From Sulfurovum sp. (GTDB lineage Bacteria > Campylobacterota > Campylobacteria > Campylobacterales > Sulfurovaceae), in the NCBI GenBank assembly GCA_027062365.1, contig JAMOTK010000065.1, positions 1 to 64,000 on the forward strand: a DNA stretch of 64,000 nucleotides. The letters run 5' to 3'. The notes under the pieces are model-generated. The model did not search any database and was not told where the DNA came from. It worked only from the letters and a program-made list of their open reading frames with translations. Numbering within the stretch: position 1 is the first letter of the stretch; every line of letters starts with the position of its first letter. Positions 6,041 through 62,990 of this stretch are shown here, in pieces. The translations under genes were made by a program, and so were the position numbers.

Positions 6041-6712
6041 CTAGAGTACCTTAGGCGTTCCCTCTTGGAATGATGTAGGATTATTATTATTTCCCTTTTC
6101 ATTTAGATTAGGTGTTATTGGCTTTTGGTTTTTGGGTGTAGGTTTTTTTGGTTTTGGTTTTGGTTTTTTATTTTTTGGTTTCTTCTTTTTTGGCAGTGGT
6201 TTGCTCACACCTTGAATCAAAAAGGTAATAGGTTCTTTCCCTTGTTGCTTTAAAAAAACCAAAACTTTATCTAGTTTATGATACACATCAAAGAGTTCGA
6301 TATGTTTCATTACAGGATTAATTTCTACTTTATCATCAAAGCGTGTAGGTAAGCGATAGTTATTGCCTTCAATTCTTACTAAAGTATTATCTTTTTTTAA
6401 GACAACCCAACATACTTTAGCCAAAGAAAGAGCATAAAGAGAGTTTCGAGTCCCTTCCATACACAGCCGTGTAAACTCATCTTTTTTTATCGTAATATTA
6501 CCATCTGAATTTAAAATATCAAGATACAGTACTTTGGTAGCTTTGGTTACTTTTTTTGCTTTTTGTAAATGTTTATAAAGATGTGCATTAGAGTCACGCA
6601 TCATAGCTACTGTAGAAAATAGTGCTACGATAACGATACCTAGCAGTGCTATAGAGATGAGGACTTCTATAAGAGTAAAGGCTTTTTGAGTAGAGTTATT
6701 TTGATACTTCAT
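6041..6712 (-). CDS. T2SS minor pseudopilin (GspJ-position) with Lys/Pro-rich C-terminal tail
   Basis: Type IV pilin-like N-terminus (KAFTLIEVLISIALLGIVIVALFS); last gene of gspKLMNCDE-like run. Confidence 0.75.
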   Translation of the reverse strand: MKYQNNSTQKAFTLIEVLISIALLGIVIVALFSTVAMMRDSNAHLYKHLQKAKKVTKATKVLYLDILNSDGNITIKKDEFTRLCMEGTRNSLYALSLAKVCWVVLKKDNTLVRIEGNNYRLPTRFDDKVEINPVMKHIELFDVYHKLDKVLVFLKQQGKEPITFLIQGVSKPLPKKKKPKNKKPKPKPKKPTPKNQKPITPNLNEKGNNNNPTSFQEGTPKVL

Positions 6713-6714
6713 AC

Positions 6715-8226
6715 CTACCCATCCATAATCCCAACACGTACAGCTTCTTCATAGCTAGTTTCTCCTGCTATCAACATAGACCGTAGTTTATCAGCAATCG
6801 TTACCATACCACGTTTTTTCATTGCTTCTCGTACTTGATGGTCATTAAACCCATCTTTCATCATCTCTTTAGCATGGTCATTAATGATAAAAAGTTCACC
6901 TATGGCTTGTCGTCCTTTATAGCCTGTAAAATCACACTCTTTACACCCTATGGACTTAAAATAAATATTATTACTAGGTAATCCTACTTCTTCTAGTGTA
7001 GCAGGGGCTAATTTAGTCCCTGCTTTACAATGGACACATAGTTTTCGAGTAAGTCTTTGAGCGAGTACACCCAAGAGTGTTGAAGAGATAAGAAAGTTTT
7101 CAATACCCATATCCATCAAACGACTGAGCGAAGAGGTAGCATCATTGGTATGAAGCGTAGAGAGCAGTAAATGTCCCGTGAGGGCTGAACGTAGTGCAAT
7201 ATCTGCTGTTTCAGAATCTCGAATTTCTCCTACCATGATAATATCGGGATCTTGTCTAAGGATAGAGCGTAACCCTGCTGCAAACGTAAGACCTACTTTT
7301 GCATTGACTTGTATTTGAGAGATATTATCTGCATTATATTCCACAGGGTCTTCTACGGTGATAATATTTTTATCAGGGGTTGCTATATGTTGTAAACACG
7401 CATGAAGTGTTGTAGATTTTCCAGAACCTGTAGGACCAGTGACCAGTATCATACCATGGGCATGATTGAGTAACTTATATAAGTTTTTACTAATATCTTC
7501 TGAAAAGCCTAAAGATTCTAAAGTAGGGATATCTTCACTTTGAGAAAGAATACGCATCACAACTCTCTCTCCATGATACGTAGGTAAAATAGACACCCTT
7601 ACATCAATCGTTTTACCAGAGATACTTAATTGTGTACGTCCATCTTGGGGTACTCTTTTTTCTGAAATATCAAGATTGGAGATAACTTTAATACGGTTAA
7701 TGACTAATGCAATAATACTTTTCTCTAAATCAAGATGCTTTTTTAATGCTCCATCCATACGTAAACGTACTTCTCCTTTACGTTCGTTACTCTCTATATG
7801 AATATCACTCGCACCCTTTTGGATGGCTTGGAAAAAAAGAGAATTAACCAATTTGATAATAGGGGCAGAATCTTCACTAGAAAGTAAATCTTGTGAATTT
7901 CTAATAAACTCTAGTAAATCACCCTCCACTTCTATCAATTCATCTGAAGAAGTTGCCATTTCATCAAAGTCTGAACCTGTTTGAATTTCTAAAAATTTAT
8001 TTTTAAGTCTTTCAAAACTCTCTTCATCTACCAAATTAACAGGATAAGACAAGGAAAGTTTAGAAAGATGATTTAGGGATTCATTGAGTCTCTCTTGTGT
8101 GACAATAGAGGTAGACACACCATTCACTTCTGCAAATAAAAGAGAATGTTTTATCGCTAGTTTATGATTAATATCCTCTTCCCAAAGGGGTTCAAGGTTT
8201 ACATCTTGAAGACGAGGAAAATGCAT
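6715..8226 (-). CDS. gspE: T2SS assembly ATPase GspE
   Basis: GMILVTGPTGSGKSTTLHA, TVEDPVEY, ILRQDPDIIMVGEIRDSETADIALRSALTGHLLLSTLHTN, CxxC zinc site (CVHCKAG...CKECDF). Confidence 0.95.
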   Translation of the reverse strand: MHFPRLQDVNLEPLWEEDINHKLAIKHSLLFAEVNGVSTSIVTQERLNESLNHLSKLSLSYPVNLVDEESFERLKNKFLEIQTGSDFDEMATSSDELIEVEGDLLEFIRNSQDLLSSEDSAPIIKLVNSLFFQAIQKGASDIHIESNERKGEVRLRMDGALKKHLDLEKSIIALVINRIKVISNLDISEKRVPQDGRTQLSISGKTIDVRVSILPTYHGERVVMRILSQSEDIPTLESLGFSEDISKNLYKLLNHAHGMILVTGPTGSGKSTTLHACLQHIATPDKNIITVEDPVEYNADNISQIQVNAKVGLTFAAGLRSILRQDPDIIMVGEIRDSETADIALRSALTGHLLLSTLHTNDATSSLSRLMDMGIENFLISSTLLGVLAQRLTRKLCVHCKAGTKLAPATLEEVGLPSNNIYFKSIGCKECDFTGYKGRQAIGELFIINDHAKEMMKDGFNDHQVREAMKKRGMVTIADKLRSMLIAGETSYEEAVRVGIMDG

Positions 8227-10430
8227 TAATCTTCTCCAAACAATAAAGACTCATGTGCCGAAACTACATTACTAGGAGTAGAAGTACTTTCTACATAACT
8301 ATCTGTAGTATCTGATACACGCACCTTTTCACTACCAATATCATCTCTTGATGCTATGCGTGAAGCACTTGGATTTTTTTCTTTGTGGATAGAAGTGGAC
8401 TTCGTAGAAGTTTTTTGATAAACTGTGCCTCTTGAAGTGCTAGATACAGGAGTGGGTGCAACATAAGGGTTATGTGTGATAGAATGATTGATTCTTCCTC
8501 TAGCAGACCCTTTTGAGTCAAAAGGATTATCCTCTCTTGATTTTAAATTTTTTTCTATAAGCTTATTATATCGGTTTTGTGCATTGTCTAATTCAGCAAG
8601 TAACCCTTTAAGCTTCTGTAAATCCCCACTTTTTCTAATGATATATGGAGTAAGATAGATAATCACATTTTGTTCTCTCTCCACATCCGATTTATTGGTA
8701 AACAATAAATCTCCTAAAAAAGGTATCTCTCCAAAGAAAGGTACTTTAATTTCTCCTGTCCCACCTACCTTCTTGATAAGCCCTCCTAGTATAATGGTTT
8801 CTCCATTTCTTACAATAGCATTGGTTTTTACTGTTCGCTTGGTGGTGGTAGGTCTATCTGCAATTTGTTCAGAAGAAGGGTCAAGGTCTTCAATCTCTAC
8901 CTCTATTTCTAAACTTACTTGATTATTGCTAGAGAGTCTAGGTTGGACAGTAAGGGTAAGACCAATATCCGTTCTTTCATAGTTATTGACAATATTAGAG
9001 ACCCCAGAAGTAGATTGCTGACCTTGGGTTAAGATAGACATCGTCTGTCCTACATGAATAGAAGATTCTTTATTATTGGTACAAAGCACAGAAGGTTCAG
9101 ACAAAAGATTGGCTGCACCATTTCTTTGCAATAAGTCTAGTTGTGCCCCTAAAGCAAAAACTTTATCTGTAGAATCAATTTTAAATGCAGGGTCTGTTGT
9201 GGTGACAGCATTACCATTATTATCAAGCTGACTGCTCGTTTGATTGGTATTTAAAAAACCTAACAACTCTGAAGACATTTGTAAAGCACTCCCTCCTAGA
9301 TTTCCTGTCATAGAGAAGAGACCTGTAGAAGTGATTGCACCACCTTCTAATCCATATTTCATTCCGATTTGTGTAGCCATATTTGTATCAACTTCAACAA
9401 TTTTGGCTTTGACATACACCTGTGATTTAGGAATATCTATCTTACGTATGGTCTCACGTATATTTTTTATCTGCTCTCCTGTTGCCAATAAGACCAAAGC
9501 ATTTCTTTCGACATCAGAGACAACCATCGCTTTACTCGGAGGTGGACCTCCTTTTTTAGATGTTTTTATCGCAACAGAGTTCATTTGAGAAAGTAATTTG
9601 GAGAGTATTTTTTCCATCTCTTCCACATTTGAGTTTTTCAGACGAACGACATACATCTTTTGAGATTGATCTTCTCCTGCTAAGTCAAGTTGCTTAATAT
9701 ATTTAATCATACGACCTATATTTGTTGTTTTACCTACAAGGATAATAGAATTGGTAGATTCATCTTTAAAAATATCTACTTTTTCACTCTCAATAGTTTG
9801 AGGGAAAAGTTTTTTAGCCATGTTTTGAGCATTGCTAAAAACATCTTTGACCGTAGAATTATTTAGAGGAAGAATCACCGAACTTTTTTCTCCACGTGCT
9901 TCTACTACACGAATAATCTGAGCAATAGACTCTAATGTTTTAGGATACGCAGTAATTGCCAAAACATTATTTTCTTTAAAAGAAATCACTTTAGCACTTT
10001 TGTGTAAGAGTGGTTTTATCTTGGCACGGACGACAGCAGCATTGGTATTGTGTAGAGGAAACATCACCGTTGCCATGACATCACCCTTTATCTCACTTTG
10101 TACAGGTAGACCTTCTCCTGCTGCAGTAGCTGTTTTGACGACCTTATAGTAGGCACCCTTGTCTACCAATGTCAAGCCCTTACTCCCCAAAATAGAATTT
10201 GCCAAAGGAATGTATTCACTATATTTAATAGGTGTTTGGGAGATAAAATCTATCTTTCCTTTGAGTGCTGTTTCTATCAAAATATTTCTTTTGGTCACTT
10301 TAGAAACCATTTCGATAAAGTCTCTTACCTTCATATCTCTAATATTAACATTTATCATTTTTTCTTCTGAGGCATAAGTACTCGTAGATAGCAATAGTAT
10401 CGCACTCAACGCAAGGTTAATTAATTTCAT
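8226..10430 (-). CDS. gspD: T2SS secretin GspD
   Basis: N-domains plus secretin core (GQTMSILTQGQQS..., IVRNGETIILGGLIKK...KVPFFGEIPFLGDLLFTNKS). Confidence 0.95.
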   Translation of the reverse strand: MKLINLALSAILLLSTSTYASEEKMINVNIRDMKVRDFIEMVSKVTKRNILIETALKGKIDFISQTPIKYSEYIPLANSILGSKGLTLVDKGAYYKVVKTATAAGEGLPVQSEIKGDVMATVMFPLHNTNAAVVRAKIKPLLHKSAKVISFKENNVLAITAYPKTLESIAQIIRVVEARGEKSSVILPLNNSTVKDVFSNAQNMAKKLFPQTIESEKVDIFKDESTNSIILVGKTTNIGRMIKYIKQLDLAGEDQSQKMYVVRLKNSNVEEMEKILSKLLSQMNSVAIKTSKKGGPPPSKAMVVSDVERNALVLLATGEQIKNIRETIRKIDIPKSQVYVKAKIVEVDTNMATQIGMKYGLEGGAITSTGLFSMTGNLGGSALQMSSELLGFLNTNQTSSQLDNNGNAVTTTDPAFKIDSTDKVFALGAQLDLLQRNGAANLLSEPSVLCTNNKESSIHVGQTMSILTQGQQSTSGVSNIVNNYERTDIGLTLTVQPRLSSNNQVSLEIEVEIEDLDPSSEQIADRPTTTKRTVKTNAIVRNGETIILGGLIKKVGGTGEIKVPFFGEIPFLGDLLFTNKSDVEREQNVIIYLTPYIIRKSGDLQKLKGLLAELDNAQNRYNKLIEKNLKSREDNPFDSKGSARGRINHSITHNPYVAPTPVSSTSRGTVYQKTSTKSTSIHKEKNPSASRIASRDDIGSEKVRVSDTTDSYVESTSTPSNVVSAHESLLFGED

Positions 10431-11262
10431 ATTCTAACTCCATTTCTTCTTTGTTTCGTGTAATGATTAAACTTAGGTTTTCAACATTTTTAATATTCTT
10501 ATAGATAGCAAAGGCTGCATTATAACTCTTAATCTCTTGTCCATTGATAGATTTAATCATATCATTTCTACGAATCCCCAATTTTGCAAAAGGGGAATCT
10601 TTACGGACAAAATTAATTTTAAATCCATCTAAATCTTTGCCATTTTTAACTTCTGAGATACCTACATTTTTGTAAATATCATCCATATTTTCAGCATAAT
10701 GTTCAAGAAGTGAACGATCGATAATACGCACCCCTCCTGTTTCAGTAACTTCACCGAGAGGTGCTTTGTTTTTATTATAGGGCTTGGGTTCTCTTTTAGG
10801 TTCTTCTCTCTCACTCGTTGCTACAGATTTACCATTTTTAGCCAATAGAATTTTATAATGCTTCGTATTTTTACTAAACATCGCAAAGTTTTGTCCTGCT
10901 CCATCTAAGACAAAGCCATTGACCTCATCCCCGATGCCCAATACTTTTGTATTTTTCTTATACATCACAGTCACCACAGAGACATCATCATCATTATAAA
11001 TACCCAGAAGAGTCAATTCTTTGATACTTCCTTGGACTTTGGCTACCACTTTAGGTTTGATAACTTTAGGTGCGGCTGCTTGATTGGGTGTGAGTTTTAC
11101 TCTATAATAAAGAGCCTTACTTTCTTGGTCTTTTTCTTGGTCAATATCTACAGCAGATAACCATAAAACTTGTATCACAAACCATAAAAGTTTTACCATA
11201 AGTAACAATACCAGAAGAGAAAGTAAAGACTTTATCATCTCAGGCTTAAAAAGATTTTTCAT
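10417..11262 (-). CDS. T2SS GspC-like inner-membrane protein with C-terminal PDZ-like domain
   Basis: N-terminal TM; PDZ-like FVRKDSPFAKLGIRRNDMIKSINGQEIKSYNAAF; overlaps gspD. Confidence 0.75.
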   Translation of the reverse strand: MKNLFKPEMIKSLLSLLVLLLMVKLLWFVIQVLWLSAVDIDQEKDQESKALYYRVKLTPNQAAAPKVIKPKVVAKVQGSIKELTLLGIYNDDDVSVVTVMYKKNTKVLGIGDEVNGFVLDGAGQNFAMFSKNTKHYKILLAKNGKSVATSEREEPKREPKPYNKNKAPLGEVTETGGVRIIDRSLLEHYAENMDDIYKNVGISEVKNGKDLDGFKINFVRKDSPFAKLGIRRNDMIKSINGQEIKSYNAAFAIYKNIKNVENLSLIITRNKEEMELEYEIN

Positions 11263-11761
11263 AGAACCATCCTTTTTTATTTTTTGTTAACATTGGTTTT
11301 AACATATTCATATCTTTGGTCTCTATAAAGTCAATATGTATCTTTTTATCTTTTATACCTATCTCTCCATTGATAAGACCAAATGAACCATTGGCATCTA
11401 TACTTATGCTAAGAGGCGAAGTAATAGTATGTACAAAATTAGCGTCCTTCATCAAGGCAGGGACTTGTGTATGTAAAGATTCATCGGTTTGCAAGTTATG
11501 TATTTCTAATGTACTATAAAATAGCACACTAAAAAATTTTATCTCTTCGATATTAGCAATAGCAATACCCTTGACATGTACCGTTACATCTTTTAGTGTC
11601 AAAGAAAATAGCCCCTCTTCAATGCTTTTTTCATTGAGTTTTACATCTTGTGCTTGTAATTTTTTTTCAATACTATAATAGAGTTCTGCTTTTGGAATAA
11701 AGGCTAAAATAGAAAACCATAAGATTACTGCTATAAATAGACTTTTTTTTACCATTTGCAT
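11246..11761 (-). CDS. T2SS GspN-like protein
   Basis: Short TM-anchored protein with GspN-like LKDVTVHVKGI pattern between gspM- and gspC-like genes. Confidence 0.5.
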   Translation of the reverse strand: MQMVKKSLFIAVILWFSILAFIPKAELYYSIEKKLQAQDVKLNEKSIEEGLFSLTLKDVTVHVKGIAIANIEEIKFFSVLFYSTLEIHNLQTDESLHTQVPALMKDANFVHTITSPLSISIDANGSFGLINGEIGIKDKKIHIDFIETKDMNMLKPMLTKNKKGWFYEKSF

Positions 11762-12153
11762 TTTAACTCCATGGTGTAAGATGTACCTGATTTTATCACA
11801 TCTAGTTTTTGTATTGATACAGCTAGATTCATCACTTTTACTACCACCCTATTAAGCTCTATAGGAGAGAGGTTACTAAATGAAGCCGTAAGCTTTTTAC
11901 CCGTTCTTTTCCACTTTACAGAAGAAGGAGAAACCAAGCTCCTAAGCTTGTCTACTTTTTTTGTGGTTTGTTTATTTGCCCATACTTTTTTAAGTGCAAT
12001 GGTTTCTTTGAGTTCATTCAAAGAGTTACTCGCATCACTACTAGCTACATTTTGCGTAGCAACCAACCCTTGCTTATAAAAAAATGCCATAAGTAATAAA
12101 AGAAATGCAACCGCTACTATCAATTCATTTTTATATGCTTTTATACTATTCAT
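11749..12153 (-). CDS. T2SS GspM-like protein
   Basis: Short protein with N-terminal TM in the gspM position, overlapping the gspL-like gene. Confidence 0.5.
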   Translation of the reverse strand: MNSIKAYKNELIVAVAFLLLLMAFFYKQGLVATQNVASSDASNSLNELKETIALKKVWANKQTTKKVDKLRSLVSPSSVKWKRTGKKLTASFSNLSPIELNRVVVKVMNLAVSIQKLDVIKSGTSYTMELKCKW

Positions 12154-13106
12154 AGTTGCCCCTCTATATTTAAGTTATTGCTATTTTTAAGTCCTACTGC
12201 TACAAAATTTTCTTTCTTTGCCAATGCCTTTAGACGTTTGGACACTTTGGCATTACTACACTCAAAGGTAGCTTGAAATTTTGTATCATTGATAGAGAGT
12301 CTTGTTAGCGTTGCACCCTTAAAAATCATACTAGAGAGTGACTTAATCACATTTCGTTTAGTACGCTCTTCTTTGTCAATCTTACGGTATTTACTTAAAA
12401 TACTTTTGCGTGTATATGAGCTTTCTAATGCAGGGTAATCTTCTAAAATCACTCGCATTTCTTCTTCTTGTATCGCAGACCCATTGCCATAACGAGACGC
12501 TTCTATCACATAAATAGAAGCAAACAATATAAGTATGGCAGCCAAAGTATAGGTATCATTTGTACCAAGTAAGGCATTTCCTCTTGCTTCAAAAGAGACT
12601 CCATTCTTTGGGGTCAAGCTTTTATGAATCTGCATAGTTCTTTTATCAGCATCTAGCAAGGTTTGAGGAACTACCGTCATCGTACCATTAAGATTGACTA
12701 AAGCATCTGTATCTCCTAACAATACAGGAGAGACAAAGGAGGATAAGGATTGTTCTGCAAAGTATATCTTGGAGATAGTCTCTACATCTATCCCTTTACT
12801 TTCTAAAAATGACCTAATCATCTCTGGGTTATATGCGATAAAGAGCCATGAGTCTTCTTCTTTTATCACAAAATAATGATGATTTTGTGCATCTTCTAAC
12901 AATCCATCAAAAAGTGAGGCTGCGATACGTTTGGCTTGATACGCGTATTTTACAGGCAGTTCTTCTCGTATCAATGTATAAAATTGAGGCGTAAGCATAA
13001 TATTGATAGCCTTAGATGGCATCGTATCTATACGTCTCATCTCTTGATATACAAGTATCAGTTCTTTAGTGTTTTCCATGAAATTCAAAATATTTGGCCT
13101 CTCCAT
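12150..13106 (-). CDS. T2SS GspL-like protein
   Basis: Position between gspK- and gspM-like genes; central TM followed by periplasmic region. Confidence 0.45.
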   Translation of the reverse strand: MERPNILNFMENTKELILVYQEMRRIDTMPSKAINIMLTPQFYTLIREELPVKYAYQAKRIAASLFDGLLEDAQNHHYFVIKEEDSWLFIAYNPEMIRSFLESKGIDVETISKIYFAEQSLSSFVSPVLLGDTDALVNLNGTMTVVPQTLLDADKRTMQIHKSLTPKNGVSFEARGNALLGTNDTYTLAAILILFASIYVIEASRYGNGSAIQEEEMRVILEDYPALESSYTRKSILSKYRKIDKEERTKRNVIKSLSSMIFKGATLTRLSINDTKFQATFECSNAKVSKRLKALAKKENFVAVGLKNSNNLNIEGQL

Positions 13107-13977
13107 CTATGTAATCAAATGTAAATCTATATCCCGTATCATAGCGTACGCTACAACGAGATTCTCCCAAGAATGTACTCCCTGCGAGTATCTTTTTCTT
13201 TCTATTATAATCAACACCATTTTCACCTACAAACGTCTCAAGTGACGTTTTATATTTAGAATACATCCATTCACTTACCGTGCGTATATCAATATCAAAT
13301 AGATATGAAATCAACTCGATAGAACTATACTCAGCATCTATTTTCTCTGATTTATCAGAAAAACTAAAGTATTTATGCCATGGTATCAACGCTACTTTTT
13401 GGTCATCAGATTCCATTTCATAACGATTGATTATATTTGAGAGTTGTTTATAGCTAATAATACCATTTTTTTGTATAAGTCTTCTTTGGTCTTGTTTGAT
13501 AAATGTGTTTTCTGAACCAATTTCTAGGCGAATCATTTCTAATAATCTGTCGCCATCTTCTAAATTATACTGTTCCACCAAAAAATCAAACAAACTTTGT
13601 GCCTCGTAAAAAAGATCATATCTTTTTTTATCCCGTTCGAGTCCTAGCCAATTGATATTGACTCCTGCGGAAAGAGGACTACAACTAAGCTGTAGAGAAA
13701 AACGACCATCTTTGGTACGCAAAGAGACAGGTTTTTTATACAATAAGCTAAAGACTCCCTTGCCTTTACCTTTTTTAAATTCCAATAAAATATCTGCATA
13801 ATAGACATTTGCTTGAATCAATGCCTTGGTACTGTCTGCATCACTTTTGACTTCATTAAAATAGCTCAATAAAACAACCGTTAATGCAATCACTACAGAG
13901 AGCACCGAAAGGGTAATAATAAGTGCAAACCCTTTTTTAGAGGGATTACAAGGCGATAATAAGGTCTGTTCTTGCAT
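13066..13977 (-). CDS. gspK: T2SS minor pseudopilin GspK-like (start moved to the internal ATG at 13977)
   Basis: MQEQTLLSPCNPSKKGFALIITLSVLSVVIALTVVLLSYFNEV pilin-like N-terminus and large downstream domain; the track ORF extends to 14064, overlapping gspG. Confidence 0.7.
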   Translation of the reverse strand: MQEQTLLSPCNPSKKGFALIITLSVLSVVIALTVVLLSYFNEVKSDADSTKALIQANVYYADILLEFKKGKGKGVFSLLYKKPVSLRTKDGRFSLQLSCSPLSAGVNINWLGLERDKKRYDLFYEAQSLFDFLVEQYNLEDGDRLLEMIRLEIGSENTFIKQDQRRLIQKNGIISYKQLSNIINRYEMESDDQKVALIPWHKYFSFSDKSEKIDAEYSSIELISYLFDIDIRTVSEWMYSKYKTSLETFVGENGVDYNRKKKILAGSTFLGESRCSVRYDTGYRFTFDYIDGEAKYFEFHGKH

Positions 13978-14042
13978 TTTTATCCATTTAAAAGCTCTAT
14001 TCAAGTAAAATATTAGCAAATTATACCCAAGCAAACTAAAGG

Positions 14043-14477
14043 ATGCAAATGAAACACCCCTCAAAACTAAGAGCAGGATTTTCTCTTATTGAATTACTCA
14101 TCGTTATCGTGATACTCGGAGGTCTTGTTGCCGTAGTTGCTCCAGGACTAATGGATTCAGCAGATCAGGCAAAGCGTGATACCGTGTGCTTAAAGATGAA
14201 TGACCTCGAAAAACGTCTTGATATGTTTAAGCTTGATAATGGAATGTACCCAGAAACGGAAGAAGGATTTGCTGCATTAACTGCCAATCCTGATAGTGAA
14301 AGATACCCAAACTATCGTGCAAAACCATATCTAAAAAAAATCCCAAAAGATTCATGGAAAAGCCCTTTTGTATATATCAAAAAAGGCGATGGCTTTGAGC
14401 TTATCTCTTTTGCCGCAGATAGAAAAGAAGGTGGAGAAGAAAATTCAAAAGATATTCTTTTTAGTGCTTGTAGATAG
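14043..14477 (+). CDS. gspG: T2SS major pseudopilin GspG
   Basis: RAGFSLIELLIVIVILGGLVAVVAPGLM...LDNGMYPETEEGFAAL...PYLKKIPKDSWKSPF. Confidence 0.93.
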   Translation: MQMKHPSKLRAGFSLIELLIVIVILGGLVAVVAPGLMDSADQAKRDTVCLKMNDLEKRLDMFKLDNGMYPETEEGFAALTANPDSERYPNYRAKPYLKKIPKDSWKSPFVYIKKGDGFELISFAADRKEGGEENSKDILFSACR

Positions 14478-15026
14478 ATGATAAAGACAAAAGACAACAA
14501 AAGACGCAAAGGCTTTACGCTTATTGAACTTCTTATTGTTATTCTTATTGTCTCTATGGTCTATATGCTAGGATTCTCTCCTATAGAAAATGAAACCCAA
14601 AAAACCAAAGCACTCTCCCCACTCAATCTAAAATCTACACTCATCTCTAGCGAAGGGGTGAGTGAGCAATTGACACTTCTGTGTGTAGACAAATGTAAAA
14701 CTTGCCTATTGAGACAAGGTCTGTTATCTCCATATCAAGCATACACGAGTACCATCGATCTTAGTGGTATCAAAGCCTATACGGTAGATGCTAGTGATTC
14801 TTTGGTCAAAATAGAATATGAACGCTACAAAGATAAGAAAATTTGTCTTAAAATAGATTTTTATCCCAATGGAAGTTCTACACAAATTATCTTAAAAAAT
14901 GAAAAAGGAAGCTATTTTTTGCCTACCTTTTTTGATGAGCCTAAAAGATTTGATTCAGAAGAAGATGCCAAAGAGTATTGGCTCAATAATTCACAACTTG
15001 TTGCTAACGATGGAGAATTTTATTGA
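14478..15026 (+). CDS. T2SS GspH-like minor pseudopilin
   Basis: KGFTLIELLIVILIVSMVYMLGF prepilin signature; overlaps the next prepilin ORF. Confidence 0.65.
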   Translation: MIKTKDNKRRKGFTLIELLIVILIVSMVYMLGFSPIENETQKTKALSPLNLKSTLISSEGVSEQLTLLCVDKCKTCLLRQGLLSPYQAYTSTIDLSGIKAYTVDASDSLVKIEYERYKDKKICLKIDFYPNGSSTQIILKNEKGSYFLPTFFDEPKRFDSEEDAKEYWLNNSQLVANDGEFY

Positions 15027-15451
15027 TACCTAAAAAAGACCAAATCTTACGCCCTGCTTTTACTATTATTGAGATTTTAATTTCTGTTATTATTATCTCT
15101 GTCTCTATCATCTATGTACTTAAACTACATACAAGCAATGCCAAACAAATCGTCTATATCTCTGAACGCAATAAACGCTCCTTAGAAGACTCCTTGTATC
15201 TTACGCTCAAAACCTTAAAACACCACCAACAAACCAAAACGGCAGAAGAGTTACTCATACGTGAATTTAATATCAAAGAGTCACAAAGTCGTGAAATTTT
15301 AAAAAATAATTCACGCAGTATCTATATTCCTGAAGAAGAGTATATCTACCCACCTCCTGATATACCAGGTCCAACAGCTACAGTAAATGAAGTCAAACTC
15401 AAAGGTAAACACTCTTCTATCTATTGGCATGTAAAGATTACACGTTTTTAG
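15023..15451 (+). CDS. T2SS GspI-like minor pseudopilin (probable TTG start)
   Basis: PAFTIIEILISVIIISVSIIYVLKLH prepilin signature; TTG overlaps the preceding stop codon. Confidence 0.6.
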   Translation: MIPKKDQILRPAFTIIEILISVIIISVSIIYVLKLHTSNAKQIVYISERNKRSLEDSLYLTLKTLKHHQQTKTAEELLIREFNIKESQSREILKNNSRSIYIPEEEYIYPPPDIPGPTATVNEVKLKGKHSSIYWHVKITRF

Positions 15452-15926
15452 AGTACTTCGTGCTTTGTTTGATAAAGAGGATAAACAATCCTAAACCTGT
15501 GAGCATTAAAAAGCCATTGCCTACAATATCATGTGACCAATAAAATGCTTCTTGTCCACTGCCTTGTTCTGTCACAAAAACCACCCATAAGATGCGTAAG
15601 ACATTAACCACAAAAAAGACAATATACCCCCCTATAATCCACACTATTTTTTGGATGATAGAGGAGGGATACGCCAAAAGAGAAGCATACAAAAAAAGAA
15701 GTGGTATCAACCCATTACACAAAGAGGTAATCACGATTTTATACTGAGGGTTAATCCATATATCCTGCCCTTGAAGTTGTTCGGCTTTCAAAAAGAGTTC
15801 TAAAACACTCAAAGTAAGATGGGTTTGGGTCTGATTTAACCACAAAGCCAAAAAAGAGTGAGGAAGATAAAAGAGTAGATACAATCCCCCTAAAAAAAGA
15901 AAATAAAGTGCTATAAATTGTTTCAT
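15438..15926 (-). CDS. Small exosortase/archaeosortase-family transpeptidase-like membrane protein, 162 aa
   Basis: All-TM protein with spaced Cys/Arg/His signature: SLCNGLIPLLFLYASLLAYP ... NVLRILWVVFV ... YWSHDIVGN. Confidence 0.75.
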   Translation of the reverse strand: MKQFIALYFLFLGGLYLLFYLPHSFLALWLNQTQTHLTLSVLELFLKAEQLQGQDIWINPQYKIVITSLCNGLIPLLFLYASLLAYPSSIIQKIVWIIGGYIVFFVVNVLRILWVVFVTEQGSGQEAFYWSHDIVGNGFLMLTGLGLFILFIKQSTKYSKNV

Positions 15927-15993: not shown

Positions 15994-17208
15994 ATGCTTT
16001 TTAAGTATAAAGGTTTTGACAAATCAGGTAAAAAGGTAAAAGGCACAGTCTCGGCTAGTTCTGTAGAAGAAGCTGGACAGAAACTAAAGACACAAGGTAT
16101 CTACCATGAAGGGCTTACCCCTACAAAAGAGTTTTCACTAGAAGCCTTTTCTAAGCGTCAAATGCCAGGGGAGCTTTTGGCATTGTTTTCTAAAGAGCTT
16201 TCCTCTTACCTCAATTCTGGTATGACCATACTCACGGCGATTAAATTATTGGAGAATCAACATGAGGGAGAAAAACGTTATGTCTCTTTTCTAAATTCAC
16301 TCAAAACCATGATTGATGAAGGAAAGTCACTTTTTAATGCACTTCAAGCCCAAAAGGTCTACGCTTTACCTGACTTTTATCTACAAAGTCTCAATGTAGC
16401 AGGACAAAGTGGAAAGATGGTCGAAGTCCTTACCAATATGGGTACGTTTTTCTCTGCACAAAGTAAAGTACGTAAGCAAGTCAAAGGAGCGATGACCTAT
16501 CCTGCGATTATCTTTAGTGTTGCCATTGGGATGACCTCATTTCTTATCGCTTTTGTCGTGCCTCAAATTACAGAAATTTTTGATGATACAGGTCAAGCAT
16601 TGCCCCCTATTACCCAGTTTGTACTCAATATTAGTGACTTTTTAACAGCACACTATATCGCACTTATCGTAGGCTTTGTCCTCTTCATCTTCTCTTTCAA
16701 ACTAGCCTATGCAAAAGTAGAAGGTTTCCACCGTATCGTCGATATAGGGCTACTCAAAATACCCGTCCTTGGAACGTTGATACAAAACCATGAATTGGGT
16801 AGATTTTCTTACATACTCTCTCTTATGTTATCATCAGGTGTTGCCTATGCCCAAGCTGTACACCTTGCCAAAGCGACCTTTGCCAACTATGGATTCAAAG
16901 CACTCTTTGAAAAAGCCACAGTAAAAGTACAAGAAGGAAACAAGCTCTCTAATGCCCTACAAATGACAAGAGGCGTGAAGCTCAAACGAAACTTCATGCA
17001 GTCACTAGCCCTAGGAGAAGAGTCTAGTGAAGTTGCTAGTATCTTAGACAATATATCAGCACTTTACGCAGAAGAAAACGAAGACAAGCTCAAACTCCTG
17101 CTTAGTCTCTTAGAACCCTTTATGATGCTCTTTATCGGTGTAGTTGTAGGGGTTATTGTCTCTGCTATGCTTCTTCCTATCTTTACCATGACACAAGGAC
17201 TACAATAA
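15994..17208 (+). CDS. gspF: T2SS inner-membrane platform protein GspF
   Basis: Two T2SSF repeats, ELSSYLNSGMTILTAIKLL and LGRFSYILSLMLSSGVAYAQAVHLA. Confidence 0.94.
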   Translation: MLFKYKGFDKSGKKVKGTVSASSVEEAGQKLKTQGIYHEGLTPTKEFSLEAFSKRQMPGELLALFSKELSSYLNSGMTILTAIKLLENQHEGEKRYVSFLNSLKTMIDEGKSLFNALQAQKVYALPDFYLQSLNVAGQSGKMVEVLTNMGTFFSAQSKVRKQVKGAMTYPAIIFSVAIGMTSFLIAFVVPQITEIFDDTGQALPPITQFVLNISDFLTAHYIALIVGFVLFIFSFKLAYAKVEGFHRIVDIGLLKIPVLGTLIQNHELGRFSYILSLMLSSGVAYAQAVHLAKATFANYGFKALFEKATVKVQEGNKLSNALQMTRGVKLKRNFMQSLALGEESSEVASILDNISALYAEENEDKLKLLLSLLEPFMMLFIGVVVGVIVSAMLLPIFTMTQGLQ

Positions 17209-60875: not shown

Positions 60876-62990
60876 ATGCAAGTAAATCGTACAACACACA
60901 TAATAATTTTGATAGCGATAGCCTATGCTTTAAGTATAGCAGTGAGATTGATATGGGTCTATCAATTTGCTGGGAATGATAGCTTTATTTGGGATGGACA
61001 GCTAATGATTAATACTAATGATGGGTATTATTTTGCTGAAAGTGCTAGAGATATACTTAATGGGACAACAGTATATAAGCCTGATGCTAATGGTGCATTG
61101 GCTATTATGACCGTTTTCTTTGCTAAGATTCTCCCTTTTAGCTTTGAGACCATTATCCTCTATATGCCTGCTTTTTTAGGTGCATTACTCGTGGTGCCTA
61201 TTGTACTCATAGGATATAGTCTAAATCGTCCTTATCTTGGATTTATTGCAGGGTTGTTTGCTTCTATTGTCTGGAGTTATTATAACCGTACGATGACAGG
61301 ATATTATGATTCTGATATGCTCAATATTGTGACACCTGCTTTTGTCTTGTGGAGTATTATCCATGCATTGACCACACAAAAGAATAGATATCTTATCTTG
61401 ATGATTATGATGATGGTTGCCTCTCAATTTTGGTATAGTAAAAATATTTCTTTAAATACAGCCATGGTATTTATGGCTGTGATATATGTGATGGTAAAGG
61501 ATAGACATAATATCTTTAATCTAAAACTTATCGCTTTTGCATTTATCGGCTTGGCATTTATTCCTCTTGCACTTAAAGCTATTTTAGCACTTATCCTCTT
61601 TGGACTTTTTCATTATAAAGATACACTCACCAATAAATATATCTATCCCATAGCAGGTATAATGTTTGTACTTTATCTCTATAGTGGGGCATTTTATTCT
61701 ATAGTAAGTTCACTCAACCTTTATGTTTTTAATAGATTCTTTCCCACAGAAGTGCTTCAAGGTGTATCAGGATTACAATTTTTTGATGTCATTGGTACAG
61801 TAAGAGAAGCAGGGGCTATTCCTTTTGAAACTTTTGCCAATCGTATTAGTGGACATACCATTACTTTTTTATTTTCTACAATAGGTGTGATTATGCTTAT
61901 AATTAGATATCCTATACTTATTGTATCTTTGCCTATGGTTGCCATGGGCTTTATGGCATACAAGTCTGGACTTAGATTTACGGTGTATGCTGTGCCTATC
62001 TATGCTTTGGGTTTTGGATACATAACTCTGTATCTTAGCGAAAAGCTCAAACTTATTATTTTGGATAAGAAAAAGCTACAAATAGCTCAAATAATCATGC
62101 CGATTTTGATAGTATCTTTGGCACTGTATCCCAATATTATGCATATCATTGGCTATAAAGTACCTACTGTACTCAATAAAACAGAAGTACAAGACCTGGA
62201 TAAGCTCAAAGCCATCTCTTCACCGAAGGACTACACTTTGTCATGGTGGGATTATGGGTATCCTATTCGTTATTACTCAGAGACGCAAACACTGATAGAT
62301 GGAGGAAAGCATCAAAATGATAATTTTATTATTTCTCAAATGATGTTTAGTACTTCTGCTCAACAAGTTGCAAATTTAAGTCGTCTAGCAGTAGAGACAT
62401 ACGTAGATGACAATTGTTCAGTTGTAGCAAATACTTTATTTCAACAAGGAAAAGAAAATCAACTTGACCCTACACTATTTTTAGAAGAGTTAGACGATGC
62501 ACACTATGTCTTACCTGCTAAAACACGTGATGTGTATCTTTACTTACCGTATAGAATGCTCAATATATTTCCTACAGTAGCTAAGTTTGGTAACTTAGAT
62601 TTGACTACAGGGTTAGCGTTACGTAAAATGGTGTTTTACCCGACAGGTATGGCGAGTAATAACAAAGGGGTTATTCAATTTAGCAATGGTATTATCTTTG
62701 ATGGACAAAAAGGTGAACTCACTATTGGTAGGCAAAAAACAAAGGTAAAATATTTTATCTCTACACAAAATACAGTAAAAGGTCAAATAAGCCTAGACGC
62801 AAAAATCTTTCATATAGATGGAGACTATGCCGTAGTGTATATGAAAAGTTATGGACGTTTTGTGGTTATGGACTTAGAGACTTTTCACTCTACTTATGTA
62901 CAAATGTTTATACTTGGGAAATATGATAAGAATCTTTTTGAATTGGTTGTTTCCTCACCCTATAGTAAAATTTATAAATTGAAGATTTAA
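60876..62990 (+). CDS. pglB: STT3/PglB-type oligosaccharyltransferase
   Basis: NTNDGYYFAESARDIL (first extracytoplasmic loop, cf. PglB NDGYAFAEGARD), multi-TM N-terminal half, catalytic WWDYG at 62244-62258. Confidence 0.92.
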   Translation: MQVNRTTHIIILIAIAYALSIAVRLIWVYQFAGNDSFIWDGQLMINTNDGYYFAESARDILNGTTVYKPDANGALAIMTVFFAKILPFSFETIILYMPAFLGALLVVPIVLIGYSLNRPYLGFIAGLFASIVWSYYNRTMTGYYDSDMLNIVTPAFVLWSIIHALTTQKNRYLILMIMMMVASQFWYSKNISLNTAMVFMAVIYVMVKDRHNIFNLKLIAFAFIGLAFIPLALKAILALILFGLFHYKDTLTNKYIYPIAGIMFVLYLYSGAFYSIVSSLNLYVFNRFFPTEVLQGVSGLQFFDVIGTVREAGAIPFETFANRISGHTITFLFSTIGVIMLIIRYPILIVSLPMVAMGFMAYKSGLRFTVYAVPIYALGFGYITLYLSEKLKLIILDKKKLQIAQIIMPILIVSLALYPNIMHIIGYKVPTVLNKTEVQDLDKLKAISSPKDYTLSWWDYGYPIRYYSETQTLIDGGKHQNDNFIISQMMFSTSAQQVANLSRLAVETYVDDNCSVVANTLFQQGKENQLDPTLFLEELDDAHYVLPAKTRDVYLYLPYRMLNIFPTVAKFGNLDLTTGLALRKMVFYPTGMASNNKGVIQFSNGIIFDGQKGELTIGRQKTKVKYFISTQNTVKGQISLDAKIFHIDGDYAVVYMKSYGRFVVMDLETFHSTYVQMFILGKYDKNLFELVVSSPYSKIYKLKI

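Follow-up and report, generated by a model that had tools for sequence, protein, structure and literature searches.

A putative exosortase linked to type II secretion genes, and a candidate SDSG-type sorting tail, in Sulfurovum and its relatives

What is a small exosortase-family gene doing on the opposite strand inside a type II secretion system (T2SS) cluster, and on which proteins might its product act? Both questions are raised by a 64,000-nucleotide stretch of Sulfurovum sp. DNA (the window), in which an open reading frame of 162 aa with an ATG start (15438..15926, minus strand) overlaps by 14 bases the 3' end of a pseudopilin gene (15023-15451, plus strand) and is followed by gspF, which starts at 15994 on the plus strand. 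This antisense placement, and the motifs SLCNGL, NVLRI and YWSHDIVGN in the encoded protein, are as described in an earlier sequence-only reading, which had suggested that T2SS substrates or pseudopilus-associated proteins might be processed by the enzyme.

On the plus strand the surrounding cluster comprises gspG, the major pseudopilin gene (14043..14477; TIGR01710 at 131.9 bits, above cut-off), a GspH-like minor pseudopilin gene (14478..15026; the N_methyl family PF07963 at 32 bits and TIGR02532 at 27.5 bits), the overlapping minor pseudopilin gene (15023..15451), which has a prepilin N-terminal motif and is weakly GspI-like (gspI model 13.3 bits, below cut-off), and gspF, for the inner-membrane platform protein (15994..17208; PF00482 at 138 bits, TIGR02120 at 274.5 bits, below its cut-off of 424). 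On the minus strand lie a GspJ-like pseudopilin gene (6041..6712), named from its prepilin motif and from neighbourhoods, the gspE ATPase gene (6715..8226), an open reading frame with 71-85% identity to counterparts in the T2SS clusters of relatives, the gspD secretin gene (8226..10430), for which 149 of the 175 family genomes have an ortholog (E<=1e-50), and a gspC-like gene (10417..11262), assigned from position and from sequence with a PDZ-like region at the C terminus. On the minus strand, position and conservation in relatives further suggest gspN-like (11246..11761), gspM-like (11749..12153) and gspL-like (12150..13106) genes, the last with no family match. The same considerations give a gspK-like name to the minus-strand gene at 13066..14064; family models (TIGR, Pfam) gave no match above threshold, so this name is provisional, and the listed frame begins at TTG, the true start probably lying further inside. 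Elsewhere in the window, 40611-63938 is a surface-sugar and glycan block with a sugar epimerase, a NeuB-like synthase, glycosyltransferases and an ABC transporter, and a 704-aa protein (60876-62990) resembles PglB/STT3-type oligosaccharyltransferases, these names being taken from sequence only.

Membership of the 162-aa protein in the exosortase/archaeosortase family, as proposed earlier, is borne out by TIGR04178 (49.8 bits, cut-off 23) and by Pfam PF09721 (39.7 bits, gathering threshold 25.7), and Cys70, Arg111 and His132 are invariant in an alignment of 23 homologs. Named relatives of the gene come from Sulfurovum sp., and orthologs at 53-65% identity are present in seven of ten sampled congeners. 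An AlphaFold2 model, for which the input was homologs only, has a pLDDT of 93.6 and a pTM of 0.86, with five helical segments (2-20, 25-45, 73-85, 90-121 and 125-161), as befits the multi-pass membrane proteins of TIGR04178. A beta hairpin (55-65) stands immediately ahead of the catalytic Cys, and the earlier description of the protein as "all-TM" must be amended to that extent. These family scores, orthologs, invariant residues and confident model establish that the reading frame is a real gene and not a chance one. A search of the PDB, by sequence and by fold, returned no solved structure related to the enzyme.

The subtype is another matter. Among the named exosortase models (XrtH, XrtX, XrtG and others) none scores above cut-off; XrtH comes highest, at 51 bits against a cut-off of 86, and XrtH membership, to which the sequence-only reading had likened the enzyme, was rejected on that score. 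The PEP-CTERM/EpsH-type model TIGR02602, which had been named as a further check, gives 23 bits against 105.55.

Exosortases are paired with tripartite C-terminal tails, and such a signal was found. In Sulfurovum sp. AR (L028) and in a genus designated g2 (L037), large repeat proteins encoded beside the enzyme gene end in a motif, a transmembrane (TM) helix and a basic stretch, and each of them adjoins a gene for an outer-membrane beta-barrel of about 220 aa. A search of relatives with a profile of this barrel yielded further pairs of tailed protein and barrel, and alignment of the tails gave the consensus (C)xC...(K)SDSGDA(L/M), then a TM helix, then (F/Y)(V/I)R(R/K)EE, which supplies the co-occurring tripartite tail characteristic of the TIGR04178 family. 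The carriers are mostly giant repeat proteins of the SdrD_B/DUF11 type. Tailed protein, barrel and exosortase genes are neighbours at five loci, on the same strand in L037 (g2), L041 (g6) and L177 (g1) and adjacent in L028 and L185 (g1). None of the NCBIfam sorting-tail models matches the SDSG tails above cut-off: the IPTL_CTERM model matches one of 18 tails, at 15.1 bits against a cut-off of 20.5, and the MYXO-CTERM model TIGR03901 matches two of the 18, with a best E of 0.15. The remark of the sequence-only reading that no window protein bears a sorting tail is right for the SDSG type, which none of them has.

Other genes stand near the enzyme or carry the tail. In some genus-1 genomes a gene of 604-663 aa precedes the exosortase gene on the same strand (L029, L033, L034, L167, L168 and L183), and its 604-605 aa copies have a C terminus resembling an MscS-type channel; the adjoining 604-616 aa gene was considered as a substrate and rejected, its end showing no tail signal. 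At five other loci, mini-proteins of about 67-81 aa (L206 1465-1683, minus strand; L207 1592-1795, minus; L208 1489-1698, plus; L209 1368-1604, plus; L210 1464-1709, minus) consist of a signal peptide, an AGGDIAPVEP-type linker resembling the N terminus of the barrel family, and an SDSG-type tail. Their genes adjoin a conserved gene of about 148 aa, and they are possibly the smallest substrates.

In the genome from which the window comes, a search with the tail profile gives a single clear match, to a protein encoded at the end of contig C59 and cut off there (E 4e-11), with a tail that reads ...TRSDSGDTLGNW-TM-YYVRKEE and an end that reads TRSDSGDTLGNWSLFILMFLTGLIGLYYVRKEELYLKK. The N-terminal 2,564 aa of the protein are encoded on contig C60; because the ends of the two contigs share exactly 127 bases, the parts probably belong to one gene broken in assembly, of about 4,000 codons, a length in which repeats could hide more. 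The protein is of the SdrD_B/DUF11 type, and over the first 1,100 aa it shows 37% identity to a giant protein of genus g5 that is encoded directly after the exosortase gene (L039/L040). In its own genome, the protein of about 4,000 aa is the candidate substrate. No cysteine precedes its SDSG motif, and members of the close barrel subfamily are missing from the genome, the best score being 69.5 bits vs at least 128 in the enzyme-bearing relatives sampled. Two outer-membrane barrel genes do lie beside the N-terminal end of the giant protein (C60:500-16500); they belong to the general barrel family, outside the close subfamily.

Enzyme and tail go together across genomes. Among 90 good assemblies both were found in 43, the enzyme only in eight, the tail only in four and neither in 35 (Fisher p 7e-13); within the genus the corresponding counts, which leave out one pseudogene case (G357), are 35, 6, 6 and 31 (p 7e-10), all of these being raw genome counts in which kinship is ignored. 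Some of the eight enzyme-only and four tail-only genomes probably reflect contig breaks in long repeats. In G357 the exosortase at the T2SS site is a pseudogene, present only as fragments with several stops and frameshifts, and no intact tailed protein was found in that genome.

The linkage to T2SS genes was followed through the family, where the enzyme occurs in 92 of 175 genomes of Sulfurovum relatives; in an order-wide sample it is rare outside the family. At least 57 of the 92 have the enzyme at a T2SS locus, a figure that combines neighbourhoods with genomes in which GspD is encoded no more than a few kilobases away on the contig of the enzyme gene, the rest being unlinked or interrupted by contig breaks that prevent a call. 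Six genera and four arrangements are represented: antisense in the pseudopilin-gspF gap (g1, g82 and g84); at the same site on the sense strand (g83); on the same strand directly after gspC-D-E and the GspJ-like pseudopilin gene (11 of 12 g7 genomes); and, in three g5 genomes, next to the T2SS genes together with a barrel gene. That the linkage might be a quirk of one genus was accordingly rejected on wider sampling. Strict linkage nevertheless fails: the enzyme is unlinked in every genome sampled from g2, g3 and g6 and at nine of 28 genus-1 loci, so that the association with T2SS genes pointed out by the sequence-only reading holds as a recurrent one but not as a rule. Away from T2SS genes the enzyme adjoins tailed protein and barrel genes, at the five loci given above, or lies near glmS (L035 and others). 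The exosortase gene tree follows the genera, and on it the arrangement must have changed about eight times; its deep forks are weak and poorly resolved, which makes it uncertain how many of the T2SS linkages are independent. A GspD ortholog is present in 91 of the 92 enzyme-bearing genomes vs 58 of the 83 without the enzyme, a difference that owes much to the T2SS-free genus g4. Since those 58 have a T2SS without the enzyme, the T2SS does not need it.

Two other families have exosortases of their own. In family f4 (L045, L047) a separate lineage of exosortases is encoded about five genes from gspC-gspD and adjoins the gene for a tailed protein of about 880 aa, a possible further link between exosortase and T2SS. 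In family f18 (L046, L049, L051, L052 and L053) a different subfamily is followed by a conserved gene of about 200 aa, with VPLSP-type tails nearby in some; no T2SS link was seen in these neighbourhoods.

The cysteines ahead of the tail motif correspond to a feature of the barrel. Among 34 adjacent pairs, two patterns occur ahead of SDSG in the tailed protein, CxC and a single Cys, and without exception the CxC proteins are paired with barrels lacking Cys at alignment column 165 and the single-Cys proteins with barrels having it, in what is read from the strand pattern as the first outer loop. What the correspondence does show is that every tailed protein stays with a particular kind of barrel. 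The matching patterns may go back to two ancient kinds of cassette, each passed on as a pair, instead of reflecting direct bonds. Because the tail in the window's own genome has no Cys and that genome has no such barrel, it is probably the barrel, and not the exosortase, that the cysteines serve.

The sequences themselves show the enzyme family, the tail, its co-occurrence with the enzyme, the linkages between genes and the corresponding cysteines of tailed protein and barrel; cleavage, transfer to an acceptor, export by the T2SS and attachment at the surface are inferred, and would take place as follows. Giant repeat adhesins would enter the periplasm via Sec and be tethered in the inner membrane by the C-terminal TM helix behind the SDSG-type motif. 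The exosortase, through Cys70, Arg111 and His132, would make its cut at the motif, on the periplasmic side of the membrane, and free the protein, which it would probably hand on to a small acceptor, as is thought for other exosortases. The T2SS would then carry the released protein across the outer membrane, and in most relatives the adhesin would remain surface-bound with its partner, the beta-barrel of the adjoining gene. If exosortases studied elsewhere and the GlyGly-CTERM and MYXO-CTERM systems (PMC3237569, PMC11980579, PMC3325183) are a guide, the enzyme probably frees the adhesin and the T2SS exports it. The reading preferred here, at a probability of about two in three, is that of a dedicated exosortase, tied to the T2SS, by which adhesins with the SDSG tail are freed from the inner membrane and made available for export. 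A more detailed version, comprising a T2SS-dedicated exosortase, an SDSG-CTERM signal outside the NCBIfam models and a barrel whose matching loop cysteines hold the base of the adhesin, perhaps through disulfides, is offered tentatively, the odds being somewhat against it as a whole.

It may be argued instead that the enzyme processes SDSG-tailed proteins while its place in the T2SS cluster is merely inherited, the substrates staying in the periplasm or leaving by a different exit. The unlinked enzymes of g2, g3 and g6, and of about one genus-1 locus in three, agree with this, as does the frequency of T2SS without enzyme; an antisense gene in g1, g82 and g84 implies no shared operon there, and giant repeat proteins could take another route. 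Repeated retention, however, is a better fit to four arrangements, two of which put the gene on the same strand inside a T2SS operon or at its end (g83, g7), together with the T2SS-side placement in g5, and 91 of 92 enzyme-bearing genomes keep a T2SS. An inherited position is for these reasons considered unlikely.

Two further explanations have much less to commend them. Decay of the exosortase in the window's own genome into a non-functional relic would accord with the missing close barrel (69.5 vs at least 128 bits) and the cysteine-free tail, but the frame is open, every catalytic residue is present, the same genome encodes a clear tailed protein, and a true relic looks different, as the stops and frameshifts of G357 illustrate; the idea is very improbable. 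The chance is slimmer still that the enzyme is an accessory factor by which pseudopilins or other components of the T2SS are matured: pseudopilin genes adjoin it in many genomes, but the tail is absent from all window proteins, many genomes have a T2SS and no enzyme, and the pseudopilins carry the usual N-terminal prepilin motif for prepilin peptidase. Of the original suggestion, pseudopilus proteins as substrates are thus unsupported, whereas the discovery of a tail signal and of the proteins that bear it has turned T2SS-exported surface proteins into concrete candidates, the SDSG-tailed proteins being the putative substrates.

The preferred reading, release by an exosortase for T2SS export, has counterparts among known systems. 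With the exosortase/archaeosortase superfamily (TIGR04178, PF09721; EpsH/PEP-CTERM) the enzyme shares the family score, the order of Cys, Arg and His, the multi-pass membrane topology and the co-occurring tail of motif, TM helix and basic end, but it is linked to T2SS rather than exopolysaccharide genes, falls far under every named subtype cut-off, goes with an SDSG-type motif rather than PEP or IPTL, and has one or few putative substrates in most genomes. The likeness to IPTL-CTERM/XrtH consists of the best named enzyme model (51 bits) and of a weak IPTL_CTERM match by the tail of the window's own genome (15.1 bits), both under the curated cut-offs (86 and 20.5), and the IPTLxxWG motif is absent. 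Tail-processing enzymes that work with T2SS have precedents in rhombosortase (PMC3237569) and myxosortase (PMC11980579). GlyGly-CTERM/rhombosortase likewise involves a membrane enzyme that processes tails in T2SS bacteria, with dedicated enzyme-target gene pairs, but rhombosortase is a rhomboid serine protease unrelated to exosortases; it was reported to be co-distributed with T2SS, no particular T2SS subclass being found (PMC3237569). In the MYXO-CTERM/myxosortase and TraA-TraB system, surface proteins with tails that are often CxC- or GCGC-like are exported by T2SS and have an envelope partner encoded adjacently (PMC11980579, PMC3325183). Myxosortase differs in being a CPBP-type protease, also unrelated to exosortases; the MYXO-CTERM model misses the Sulfurovum-set tails (best E 0.15), in which the Cys pattern tracks the barrel partner, the Cys being absent from the tail in the window's own genome.

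Within the body of literature searched there was no paper on exosortases in Sulfurovum, the one match being incidental, and two matches for Epsilonproteobacteria were incidental by title. The exosortase family is itself known; what is new is a T2SS-linked member with a dedicated tail signal outside current models. The route of exosortase substrates across the outer membrane was called currently unclear in a 2025 study of a cyanobacterial exosortase (PMC12188702). If the proposed pathway is true, it would provide an answer to how such substrates cross that membrane, and the enzyme would be a third, unrelated type, after rhombosortase and myxosortase, to feed tail-anchored proteins to the T2SS.
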